This document shows positions 16,575 through 20,192 of a DNA stretch of 31,726 nucleotides, in pieces (position 1 is the first letter of the stretch; each line of letters starts with the position of its first letter). The position numbers and the translations under genes are program-made. A model generated the notes under the pieces. The model ran no database searches. It was not told the origin of the DNA and saw nothing but the letters and a program-made list of their open reading frames with translations. The stretch lies in the IMG/VR virus record IMGVR_UViG_3300032093_000545, positions 1 through 31,726 of that record; one strand, written 5' to 3'. This DNA is from a virus.

Positions 16575-17159
16575 ATGAAATTTGTAAAAAATACAAAATA
16601 TTATACAGGAACTGTTTACGAATGGAATTTACCAACAGGTCACACGTGTCCTTTTGCGTTAGAATGTTTAGTAAAGGTTAATAGAGAAACAGGAAAATTT
16701 GATAATAAATCAAATGCTTATAAATGTTATGCTGCAAGTCCAGAAAGATTCCCTGCGGTTAGAAATCATCGTTGGAATAATTATGAATATGTATTATTGA
16801 AACAAAAACCAATTTTACCAAAAGATTGCAAAGCGGTTAGGATTCACGCAAGCGGTGATTTTTTTAATCAGGAATATTTTGATATGTGGTTAGAAGTAGC
16901 AAAAGAAAATCCAAATATTGAATTCTGGGCGTATACAAAATCTTTAAAATATTGGGTAAATAGAATTAATGATATACCTGATAATTTAGTATTGACTGCA
17001 AGTTATGGCGGAAGAAATGACGAATTAATTAAACAATACAATTTAAAGCATTCAATAGTTATAAGAGAACAAAAAGATGATATGCCTATTGATTATAATG
17101 ATGACTATGCAAGAAAACCAAATGTAAATTTTTATTTATTAGATAATTTTAAAAAATGA
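16575..17159 (+). CDS. GP88-family protein
   Basis: A 194-residue protein matching the family named after mycobacteriophage gene product 88: LPTGHTCPFALECLVKVNR (19-37), KCYAASPERFPAVRNHRW (50-67), VRIHASGDFFNQEYFDMWL (88-106) and FWAYTKSLKYW. Three conserved Cys (C25, C31, C51) near the N-terminus could bind a metal or iron-sulfur cluster, and the strand-helix order is alpha/beta. No biochemical function is established for the family as far as I know. It is coupled by ATGA to the ParB-like gene, and with it and the ABC-GNAT gene forms a three-gene cassette before the terminase. Confidence 0.8.
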   Translation: MKFVKNTKYYTGTVYEWNLPTGHTCPFALECLVKVNRETGKFDNKSNAYKCYAASPERFPAVRNHRWNNYEYVLLKQKPILPKDCKAVRIHASGDFFNQEYFDMWLEVAKENPNIEFWAYTKSLKYWVNRINDIPDNLVLTASYGGRNDELIKQYNLKHSIVIREQKDDMPIDYNDDYARKPNVNFYLLDNFKK

Positions 17160-17674
17160 AAGTAGATAAAGTAAAAATAAGCGAGGTAAAGACGAACCCA
17201 AAGAATCCACGTTTAATTAAAGACGATAAGTTTAAGAAGCTGGTTAAGTCTATACAGGACTTCCCACAGATGTTAGAACTGCGCCCAATAGTAGTAGATG
17301 AGAATAATATTGTACTCGGTGGAAATATGCGTTTAAAAGCGTGTAAAGAAGCAGGGTTAAAAGAAGTGTTTATTGTTAGAGCAGAAAACCTAACAGAAGA
17401 ACAAAAAGACGAATTCATTGTAAAAGACAATGTAGGCTTTGGAGAGTGGGATTGGGATATTTTAGCGAATGAATGGGATGCTGAAAAATTAGATGAATGG
17501 GGTTTAGACGTTCCTATTTTTAAAGATGGAATGGATGATGAGTTAAAAGATTTGTCAAGTAAGATAGATAATCTTTACAGAATTGAAATAGTTTGTAGAG
17601 ACGAAGAACATCAAGAAAATAGTTATAATAAATTAATTGAGGAGGGTTACGAATGCCGACTTTTGACATTATAA
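17156..17674 (+). CDS. ParB-like domain protein
   Basis: A 172-residue protein whose first ~115 residues form a ParB/Srx-like nuclease-fold domain: VKISEVKTNPKNPRLI (5-20), RPIVVDENNIVLGGNMRLKA (with the GGNMR phosphate-binding loop) and EAGLKEVFIV. The helix-turn-helix and dimer domains of partition ParB are missing. In phages, this short form is usually adjacent to DNA methyltransferases or other base-modifying enzymes, where it may use CTP or act on DNA. It overlaps the ABC-GNAT gene by 22 bases. Confidence 0.85.
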   Translation: MKVDKVKISEVKTNPKNPRLIKDDKFKKLVKSIQDFPQMLELRPIVVDENNIVLGGNMRLKACKEAGLKEVFIVRAENLTEEQKDEFIVKDNVGFGEWDWDILANEWDAEKLDEWGLDVPIFKDGMDDELKDLSSKIDNLYRIEIVCRDEEHQENSYNKLIEEGYECRLLTL

Positions 17675-18711
17675 AAGAATCCAAGCCAAGCAAAACGTTT
17701 AGAGTTGCTTCGGTTATAGGTAAATTTGATTTACAATCTGAAAACATTGTAGAACATTTTAAAGGAGATATTGAACTAGCGAAAGAATGGCAAGTAGGTT
17801 TAATCGTAGGTAAAAGCGGAACAGGAAAAACTACAATAGCAAAGCAGCTATTTGAAAATGCTTATATAACATCTTACGAATACACAAAAGAAACTGTATT
17901 AGATGATATGCCTAAAGAATGTAGCGTAGAACAAATAACGTCTGCATTTAATTCAGTAGGCTTTAGCAGTCCACCAAGTTGGTTAAAACCATATTCAGTT
18001 TTAAGTAATGGACAAAAGATGCGAGTTGACTTAGCACGTGCAATATTAGAAGAACAAAAGTTTTTTGTATTTGATGAGTTTACAAGCGTTGTAGATAGAA
18101 ACGTAGCACAGATAGGTTCGTTTGCTATGCAGAAAGCAATTAGAAAGACGGACAAACAATTTATTGCAGTTACTTGTCATTTTGACGTACAAGATTGGTT
18201 ATTGCCTGACTGGGTATTTAATACAGATACAATGACCTTTCAAAGTTTTGAAGGGCAAAAAAAAAATAGACCAGAAATTAAATTTGAAATATTCAACACA
18301 ACAGATAAAAGCATTTGGAAGATGTTTGCTAAGCACCACTATTTAAGTCACTCACATAATAACGCTGCAAATGTATTTATAGCAACAGTAAATGATGAAA
18401 TAGCAGGATTTATAAGCGTACTACCTCAACCGGGAAAGATAGCAAAAAATAGGCGTGTTCATCGTTTAGTTATGTTGCCAGATTACCAAGGAGCAGGAAT
18501 AGGTATAAGACTATTAGAAGAGGTTGGTTTAGAATATAAAAAAAACGAATATAGATTTACAATTAACACAAGTGCACAAAGTTTAATTTATGCTTTAAAG
18601 AAATCTCATAAATGGAACTGTCATCATTTTGGAAGATTAGATAGATGTGGCAATAGTATGGGAGGAGCAGGAAAAAGCAATAAAATGAGCGCATCATTTG
18701 AATTAAAATAA
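17653..18711 (+). CDS. ABC-type ATPase fused to GNAT acetyltransferase, candidate DNA-modifying enzyme
   Basis: A 352-residue two-domain protein. Residues 1-200 are an ABC ATPase: Walker A GKSGTGKT (53-60), signature LSNGQ (117-121) followed by RVDLARAI, Walker B FFVFDE (137-142), D-loop SVVDR (145-149), H-switch H176 in TCHFD. No membrane domain exists, so it is not a transporter. Residues ~209-352 are a GNAT domain: KHHYLSHSHNN (227-237), strand FIATVNDEIAGFISVL, motif A HRLVMLPDYQGAGIGIRLLE (acetyl-CoA loop QGAGIG, 279-284). Phage Mu Mom, which modifies adenine, is also a GNAT-fold protein with an HY-containing N-terminal motif. With a ParB-like partner just upstream, a role in modifying phage DNA against restriction is my leading inference; a role in modifying host proteins is the alternative. 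Confidence 0.82.
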   Translation: MPTFDIIKESKPSKTFRVASVIGKFDLQSENIVEHFKGDIELAKEWQVGLIVGKSGTGKTTIAKQLFENAYITSYEYTKETVLDDMPKECSVEQITSAFNSVGFSSPPSWLKPYSVLSNGQKMRVDLARAILEEQKFFVFDEFTSVVDRNVAQIGSFAMQKAIRKTDKQFIAVTCHFDVQDWLLPDWVFNTDTMTFQSFEGQKKNRPEIKFEIFNTTDKSIWKMFAKHHYLSHSHNNAANVFIATVNDEIAGFISVLPQPGKIAKNRRVHRLVMLPDYQGAGIGIRLLEEVGLEYKKNEYRFTINTSAQSLIYALKKSHKWNCHHFGRLDRCGNSMGGAGKSNKMSASFELK

Positions 18712-18730
18712 TTAGAAATTAATTAGAGAA

Positions 18731-19063
18731 ATGGCAAACGAAGAAAACTTAATACCTGCTCAATTAGGAGAGGTTAGAAACCCAAACGGAAGACCCAAAG
18801 GAAGTAAGAACAGAAGCACAATAGCACGACAATGGCTTGAAGTAAATCAGTCGCTAAAGAATCCGTTAACAGGCGAACAGGAAACTATGAGCCAAGAAGA
18901 CTTAATGACATTAGCTTTAATTAAGAAAGCACGTGAAGGAGATGTAAACGCATACAAGGCTTTAATGGATAGTGGTTACGGCGCACCTGTTCAGCAGATA
19001 GAACAACACAATGTAGAAATACCTTTATTCCCAGATGTTTCAGAGGACAACGGCAACGAATAA
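18731..19063 (+). CDS. Putative terminase small subunit (DUF5681-like)
   Basis: A 110-residue protein. N-terminal VRNPNGRPKGSKNRSTI (15-31) is the DUF5681-type basic motif (resembles an AT-hook), followed by helical segments (SQEDLMTLALIKKAREGD; AYKALMDSGYGAP) and an acidic C-terminus. Small size, basic DNA-binding N-terminus and overlap of 29 bases with the large terminase gene fit the DNA-recognition subunit that selects the packaging start. Sequence similarity to characterised TerS proteins is weak, so the call is partly from position. Confidence 0.7.
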   Translation: MANEENLIPAQLGEVRNPNGRPKGSKNRSTIARQWLEVNQSLKNPLTGEQETMSQEDLMTLALIKKAREGDVNAYKALMDSGYGAPVQQIEQHNVEIPLFPDVSEDNGNE

Positions 19064-20192
19064 AGTTTTGGCGTTAAAGAAACGTACTAAAATAATTCAA
19101 GGCGGCACGTCGGCTTCGAAAACGTACTCTATTTTAGCGGTGCTTATTGATAAGGCATTGAAGAAAAACACGGAGATAAGCGTAGTAGCTGAAACAATAC
19201 CACATTTAAGAAGGGGAGCGTTAAAAGACTTCTTAAAGATAATGAGGTGGACTAATAGATATGTAGATGCAAACTTCAATAAATCACTTCTAAGATACGA
19301 ATTCGCTAACGGAAGCGTAATAGAGTTCTTTAGTGCTGACGATGCGAGTAAGCTACGTGGTGCAAGAAGGGACATATTATATATCAATGAGTGCAATAAC
19401 GTCACTTTTGAATCATATAACGAGTTAGCTATCCGGACAAAGAAAGAAGTTTACTTAGACTTTAACCCTGCCAATGAGTTTTGGGTGCATACGGAACTAA
19501 AAGACGAACCAGATTCTGATTTTATAATCCTTACCTACTTAGATAACGAAGCCTTAGACCAATCCATAATAGACCAAATAGAAAAGAACAAGGAGAAAGC
19601 AAAGACTTCTGATTATTGGCGTAATTGGTGGAACGTTTACGGACTTGGTTTAGTAGGTAGCTTAGAAGGTGTCGTGTTTAATAATTGGAAAATAATTGAC
19701 ACGATACCAAATGATGCGAGATTAATAGGTATAGGATTAGACTTTGGTTATAGCGTAGACCCTACTGCAATAGTAGAAGTATATCTATACAACGGGCAAA
19801 GAATAGTAAACGAAAAAGTTTACCGGACAGGAATGCTTAACTCTGACATCGCAAAGGAACTACCTAAACACGTAGTAGTATATGCGGATTCTGCTGAACC
19901 TAAATCTATAGAAGAAATAAGAAGGCAAGGAATAACGATTAAAGGCGTTACGAAGGGCAAGGATTCAATTAACTACGGAATAGATGTAATGCAACGTCAG
20001 GACTATTTAGTAACGGCTAATAGCACGAATCTAATCAAAGAACTTAGAAGCTATTGTTGGGACACGGATAAAACAGGAGTGAGATTAAACAAACCCGCAG
20101 GAGGGAACGACCACATTATAGATGCGTTAAGGTATCACGAAATGGAAACTTTAGGACTAAACACAAGCTATGGAACATACGCCATCCGTTGA
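19035..20192 (+). CDS. terL: Terminase large subunit
   Basis: A 385-residue packaging motor ATPase/nuclease. ATPase: QGGTSASKTYS (Walker A-like, GGTSASKT 23-30), DILYINE (113-119, Walker B plus catalytic E119), and the coupling strand VYLDFNP. Nuclease (RNase H-like): GLDFGYSVDPTAI with D236, VVYADSAEP with D285, and GGNDHIIDALRY with D359 and D363. It forms the motor on the portal and cuts the concatemer. The GGTSASKT-type loop is seen in a group of phages with short terminases that includes many headful-packaging phages; the packaging mode itself cannot be told from this. It is followed at once by a small coupled gene. Confidence 0.93.
   Translation: MFQRTTATNKVLALKKRTKIIQGGTSASKTYSILAVLIDKALKKNTEISVVAETIPHLRRGALKDFLKIMRWTNRYVDANFNKSLLRYEFANGSVIEFFSADDASKLRGARRDILYINECNNVTFESYNELAIRTKKEVYLDFNPANEFWVHTELKDEPDSDFIILTYLDNEALDQSIIDQIEKNKEKAKTSDYWRNWWNVYGLGLVGSLEGVVFNNWKIIDTIPNDARLIGIGLDFGYSVDPTAIVEVYLYNGQRIVNEKVYRTGMLNSDIAKELPKHVVVYADSAEPKSIEEIRRQGITIKGVTKGKDSINYGIDVMQRQDYLVTANSTNLIKELRSYCWDTDKTGVRLNKPAGGNDHIIDALRYHEMETLGLNTSYGTYAIR

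Follow-up and report, generated by a model that had tools for sequence, protein, structure and literature searches.

Two adjoining genes at positions 17156-18711 of the window (that is, the whole stretch of 31,726 nucleotides of viral DNA analyzed here) form, with a probability that we put at roughly 0.8, a two-gene DNA-modification cassette, in which the first gene encodes a ParB-like protein and the second a DNA acyltransferase that is driven by ATP and belongs to the ABC-GNAT family. Its product is most likely an acetyl-type mark on the DNA of the phage itself, and DNA base acylation, as the predicted function of the enzyme, is well supported by the genomic context. This idea stood at the center of an earlier note on this DNA and is not new, since acylation of a DNA base by the ABC-ATPase/GNAT family, with QAX98348.1 as the exemplar, has already been predicted in print (Iyer et al. 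2021, PMC7824862, citing Iyer et al. 2013, NAR). What we add is context evidence that we consider strong, namely an in-place exchange of enzymes, a replacement at the end of Mu-like prophages, and a ParB tail specific to ABC-GNAT partners.

The cassette and its ABC-GNAT protein

The earlier note had described three open reading frames (GP88, ParB-like, and ABC-GNAT) and a series of named motifs, all of which are real, as coordinates, Pfam domains, and motif residues agree (Table 1); GP88 and parB overlap by 4 nt in the window. The same note had placed the block directly before the terminase, and the location before the packaging genes stands, but a DUF5681 gene intervenes before the large subunit. 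Its statement that no methyltransferase is present was upheld by a Pfam scan that covered 17 window proteins.

Table 1. Features of the cassette and its surroundings (positions are those of the window, except where a locus is named)
Feature	Position	Strand	Basis
GP88 (PF17338), 194 aa	16575..17159	+	Pfam E 3.6e-35
ParB-like protein, 172 aa, partner of ABC-GNAT	17156..17674	+	ParB_N PF02195, E 3.4e-7
ParB N-domain, residues 1-125, putative constant platform	17156..17530	+	Identity to ParBs with other partners
ParB tail mini-domain, residues ~139-172, NLYRIEIVCRDEEHQENSYNKLIEEGYECRLLTL, ABC-GNAT-specific	17570..17671	+	Profile
ABC ATPase-GNAT fusion, 352 aa	17653..18711	+	Pfam ABC_tran 1.8e-10 and Acetyltransf_7 4.5e-9
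Overlap of parB and ABC-GNAT genes, 22 nt, conserved	17653..17674	+	Gene coordinates in relatives
Walker A GKSGTGKT	17809..17832	+	G53, S55, G56, G58, K59 invariant (18-member alignment)
ABC signature LSNGQ, residues 117-121	18001..18015	+	L117, S118, G120 invariant (18-member alignment)
Walker B FFVFDE, residues 137-142	18061..18078	+	D141, E142 invariant (18-member alignment)
H-loop H176	18178..18180	+	Invariant (18-member alignment)
GNAT domain, residues 203-352	18259..18708	+	AlphaFold2 mean pLDDT 90; 100-sequence alignment
HHYL motif, probable active-site side	18334..18345	+	H229, Y230, L231 invariant in 100 sequences
Acetyl-CoA pyrophosphate loop QGAGIG, residues 279-284	18487..18504	+	G280, G282 invariant in 18, at least 90% in 100 sequences
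Exchanged segment (parB tail and enzyme gene; parB tail and mom in L362)	17529..18783	+	blastn
DUF5681, small-terminase-like (context)	18731..19063	+	PF18932, E 3.3e-10
Terminase large subunit (context)	19035..20192	+	PF04466/PF17288
Formyltransferase overlapping ABC-GNAT, other phages	L086:5125-5598, L090:5107-5724, L092:1826-2473, L100:1823-2473		PF00551

The window protein has the composition that marks the ABC-GNAT family, an N-terminal ABC ATPase with complete motifs (Walker A begins at G53) fused to a GNAT domain, whose HHY segment is at residues 228-230. An alignment of 18 ABC-GNAT proteins of phages from very different hosts kept Y230 and R271 invariant together with the residues credited to it in Table 1, which indicates that the motifs are under selection, and R271 and W321 were also invariant across 100 GNAT domains. 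PHROG_11143 matched the window protein over its full length (E 6e-98), and the published exemplar QAX98348.1 (gene ASfcp2_2 of Aeromonas phage AsFcp_2) is homologous to it end to end, with 36.9% identity over 84%. Searching with QAX98348.1 as the query returned largely the same set of phages as the window protein, which also matched Tenacibaculum phage pT24, named beside that exemplar by Iyer et al.

We found no experimental test of an ABC-GNAT protein in the searchable open papers, nor any modified nucleoside measured in an ABC-GNAT phage in the searchable papers. Klebsiella phages KP15 and KP27, whose DNA carries a modification of an undescribed kind, were considered as a ready experimental case and dropped, as neither was among the listed tblastn matches for ABC-GNAT. 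Separate ABC and GNAT genes were observed in Firmicutes phages (L082, L084, L096, L101, and L102), where existing annotations include siderophore or oligopeptide transporter and DNA polymerase, and ParB is labeled as a methylase. Of these, L101 is Lactococcus phage P335, which has the split genes together with ParB; Leptospira biflexa phage LE3 (L091) is another carrier of the family.

Enzyme exchange and the ParB tail

Relatives of this virus have different enzymes in the place that lies behind parB and ahead of the terminase genes. Locus L362 is co-linear with the window through GP88, the ParB N-domain, DUF5681, and TerL (amino acid identities of 87% for the N-domain, 80% for DUF5681, and 82% for TerL), and only the parB tail (15% identity) and the enzyme differ, the latter being Mom (PF25680, E 3.9e-33) in the ABC-GNAT slot. 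At the nucleotide level, blastn homology between L362 and the window extends to window position 17528 and is found again from 18784, while the ABC-GNAT-bearing L361 is continuous with the window. Among relatives with GP88, the same ParB is followed by Mom in L348 as well as L362, by a TET-associated glycosyltransferase (TAGT) in L353, L354, L359, and L381, and by a C5 DNA methyltransferase in L363, and it is fused to an N6/N4 methyltransferase in L386. The gene after a ParB in L364 gave a weak match of the Tet/JBP type. The N-domain of the window ParB is 69% identical to ParBs paired with TAGT or the C5 methyltransferase, and TAGT cassettes use the same ParB-TerS/TerL slot in relatives, although chemistry and fold differ from those of ABC-GNAT. 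With Mom, DNA methyltransferases, or TAGT in this slot in relatives, the earlier suggestion that ABC-GNAT takes the place of a methyltransferase before the packaging genes is borne out.

This pattern was also seen when about 109 different ParB loci were surveyed, where the partner was an N6/N4 methyltransferase fusion in 36, TAGT in 27, Mom in 21, ABC-GNAT in 7, and a C5 methyltransferase in 5, with a partner outside these classes in 10 and no gene in 3. The query ParBs came mostly from GP88-bearing loci whose partner gene was already listed, so these shares apply to this ParB subfamily rather than to ParBs at large; the enzyme-class profiles did not overlap in the pairs checked. Modification enzymes were concentrated at the ParB itself and just behind it (36/106, 58/99, and 8/92 at offsets 0, +1, and +2) and were rare elsewhere nearby (3/406 at -5 to -1 and 1/197 at +3 to +5).

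Unrecognized or unexpected genes follow the same ParB in L396, L416, L417, L420, L431, L439, L462, L518, and L526. The one in L416 is an FkbM methyltransferase and that in L431 is Asp/Arg hydroxylase-like, and the others gave no significant Pfam match. All of these genes are candidates for further modification enzymes. Ten of the ~109 partners are not recognized DNA modifiers, and the slot could also hold several kinds of anti-defense genes.

Replacement of Mom by ABC-GNAT was also found in Mu-like prophages. One ABC-GNAT branch sits in proviruses of 33-39 kb, and 11 of 20 full-size prophages of this branch carried a Mu transposase domain, mostly near the end opposite ABC-GNAT, so that ABC-GNAT takes the right-end position that mom has in Mu. 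A profile search found Mom in none of these 20 prophages, with the positive control matched, and in all eight Mom-bearing Mu relatives used as a control; conversely, ABC-GNAT was found in none of these eight, while three ABC-GNAT controls were recovered. The swap at the Mu right end is a second, independent replacement, and the sampled genomes have one enzyme or the other, never both.

The ParB-like protein itself belongs to the ParB/Srx superfamily (ParB_N at 30.7 bits against a cut-off of 26.3), for relatives of which NTP binding or nuclease activity has been reported (PMC12704722, PMC5512222), and its nearest PHROG is 498, the ParB-DNA methyltransferase family (E 1.4e-28). The ParB-N6/N4 methyltransferase fusions of PHROG 498 are of the same ParB subfamily and occupy the same place, but they unite enzyme and ParB in one protein, whereas the window has a separate ABC-GNAT and a ParB with what may be a docking-type tail. 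ParB lies directly 5' of ABC-GNAT in 80/80 close IMG/VR relatives, it also precedes ABC-GNAT in 45/45 Pmp13-like loci and in 61/80 loci from bacterial or archaeal genomes, and the 22-nt gene overlap is kept in all 80 close loci and in 32 of the 61 genome loci with the tail mini-domain. In the Mu-like loci (L103-L182), the upstream "ParB" matches are microproteins of ~50-60 residues that lack ParB_N and match the ParB C-terminus only. From these microproteins, we built a profile of the tail (~35 residues, pattern f.Vvv.C.dE.eQ..y.kL.e.Gy.crvltl), to which no Pfam family corresponded above cut-off.

This tail mini-domain precedes ABC-GNAT in 80/80 close, 80/80 Mu-like, and 44/45 Pmp13-like loci and in 61/80 genome loci, with about ten more of the last group having it slightly further upstream. 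Among the surveyed ParBs, it was present in all seven paired with ABC-GNAT, and the profile search found it in none of the 102 with other or unrecognized partners. Compared with the published ABC-GNAT exemplars, the window member is distinguished by a ParB partner with a family-specific tail, which the T4-like and jumbo exemplars lack in the stretches examined (no recognizable ParB or tail was found in the T4-like and jumbo relatives L087, L088, L093, and L095-L097). More generally, at N-domain identities of 40 to 90%, ParB tails are alike within an enzyme class and not between classes (mean similarity scores of 0.32-0.55 and 0.09-0.10, respectively). The difference of 0.283 was never approached by label shuffles (at most 0.024), which ignore relatedness, and the effect is strong for ABC-GNAT and the C5 methyltransferase, while Mom shows a bimodal effect and TAGT a weak one. 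Matched tails could simply be a by-product of crossovers in the conserved N-domain part of parB, and the better argument for a function of the tail with ABC-GNAT is that the microprotein stands alone in Mu-like phages.

Relation to Mom and alternative readings

By the literature, Mom of phage Mu belongs to the GNAT superfamily, as does the GNAT domain of the window, and the two have in common an HY motif after the first strand and a genomic slot, which lies ahead of the terminase or, in Mu, at the right end. Mom lacks, however, the ABC domain and the canonical QxxGxG loop of the window protein. Comparing the GNAT domain of ABC-GNAT with 26 Mom sequences by hhalign gave a probability of 2% (E 0.023), aligned around the shared HY motif only, and PF25680 (Mom) was not among the 25 best of 34 Pfam matches for the window protein. 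The best PDB matches of the predicted GNAT domain were RimI-type and small-molecule GNATs, and the Mom structure 8bv8 was not among the best 50 of 521 structural matches (E<=0.001). Close kinship with Mom, for which the earlier note had proposed a structure comparison, is rejected on these grounds. ABC-GNAT would thus work like Mom by position and probable role, and not as a member of its family.

The RimI-type likeness bears on what the enzyme modifies. If the GNAT domain acetylates a protein (e.g., RNA polymerase, a restriction enzyme of the host, or a protein for phage packaging), genes in this slot would serve counter-defense in general, and this reading fits both the fold, which is nearest to those of RimI and further acetyltransferases of proteins or small molecules, a class read elsewhere as protein-directed (PMC5512222), and the proposal that phage GNATs modify host proteins (PMC7824862). 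We nevertheless regard a protein target as unlikely, because DNA- or base-modifying enzymes occupy the slot in ~89 of 109 ParB loci even with ABC-GNAT excluded and because ABC-GNAT and Mom interchange in two unrelated phage groups. That same exchange with DNA-modifying enzymes counts against a cargo gene in which an orphan transporter ATPase is joined to an acetyltransferase for small molecules or of the antibiotic type. Many records do label the ABC part as a siderophore transporter, and the GNAT fold is generic, but no transporter membrane gene adjoins ABC-GNAT, its gene has a fixed overlap with parB, and the place before the terminase is kept across many hosts. We hold cargo to be very improbable.

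The earlier note had joined GP88 to ParB and ABC-GNAT in a three-gene system, in which GP88 would give specificity or cofactor chemistry. GP88 is securely recognized (PF17338, 122 bits against a cut-off of 24.4), and it overlaps or abuts parB in the window and in five related contigs, of which one has exactly the window's sequence across these genes. It has three conserved cysteines (C25, C31, and C51), and its predicted fold (pLDDT 84) had the radical SAM protein NifB as best PDB match, a weak and non-significant likeness (E 0.048, none below 0.001); no sequence match to GP88 was found in the PDB. We therefore do not assign GP88 as a radical SAM enzyme, a structural hint of this kind being a lead at most. 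GP88 fused to ParB also occurs (L351:190-1368), but this fusion precedes a mom gene and not ABC-GNAT. Co-occurrence decides against the larger unit: ParB and ABC-GNAT are conserved together, whereas 9 of 80 close ABC-GNAT loci contain GP88, which touches parB in five, and 71 lack it in the sequence examined, some stretches of which were short. Elsewhere, as much as 3.4 kb separates GP88 from parB, or GP88 is on the downstream side, and only ~8 of 43 GP88 loci have ABC-GNAT, the others carrying Mom, TAGT, or methyltransferase cassettes. On these counts we reject GP88 as a partner of ParB and ABC-GNAT, and the three-gene system is largely refuted and very improbable; GP88 is a bystander here, a mobile, unrelated neighbor that is probably outside the system. 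The earlier note had named these two outcomes as counting against its idea; even with Mom kinship and the three-gene unit both refuted, DNA modification is still supported, because the slot evidence is independent of them.

Probable chemistry, mechanism, and meaning

Genes next to ABC-GNAT in other phages suggest what kind of group may be transferred. In Gordonia, Porphyromonas, and Pseudomonas phages, ABC-GNAT and a formyltransferase gene overlap at the 3' end of the former (Table 1), and a formyltransferase gene lies downstream in 34 of the 55 Mu-like loci with enough sequence. In Rhodococcus phage Jace (L094:5101-6212), aspartate decarboxylase and CoA-transferase III genes were observed directly after ABC-GNAT, as if supplying beta-alanyl-CoA. 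Such tailoring neighbors would fit an amine-bearing acyl group open to formylation. The window cassette has no formyltransferase or comparable tailoring gene adjoining it, and plain acetylation is thus the simplest guess for this virus.

For the two-gene DNA-modification cassette, we infer from the context that DNA is the substrate, and we propose the following mechanism. The ParB N-domain would be the constant platform and make contact with phage DNA or with the replication and packaging machinery, while the short ParB tail would dock the ABC ATPase. ATP-driven closure of the ABC dimer may then engage the DNA and present a base, so that the GNAT domain could acylate an exocyclic amine, with acyl-CoA as the donor of an acetyl or similar group. 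A comparable working is known from the RNA cytidine acetyltransferases TmcA/NAT10, in which an NTPase domain is joined to a GNAT domain that acetylates a base amine; these act on RNA and use a helicase-type ATPase rather than an ABC one, and the likeness is in working only. The mark would shield progeny DNA against host nucleases during synthesis and packaging, and certain other phages probably elaborate the added group (by the formyltransferase, or with the aspartate decarboxylase and CoA-transferase).

A wider scheme, which we offer tentatively and give rather less than an even chance, is that of a constant ParB whose tail is matched to whichever base-modifying enzyme is encoded by the next gene. 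ABC-GNAT would then be an ATP-driven plug-in that writes an acylated base, which would be formylated further in Mu-like, Gordonia, and Porphyromonas phages and maybe built from beta-alanine in Jace.

The candidate minimal set is ABC-GNAT with the ~35-residue tail or, in Mu-like phages, with a microprotein of ~55 residues. Looking at the gene after this ParB is a simple route to more such enzymes, with other candidates in 10 of the ~109 loci. If our reading of the cassette is true, ATP-dependent acylation of DNA bases would be an added class in phage counter-restriction.
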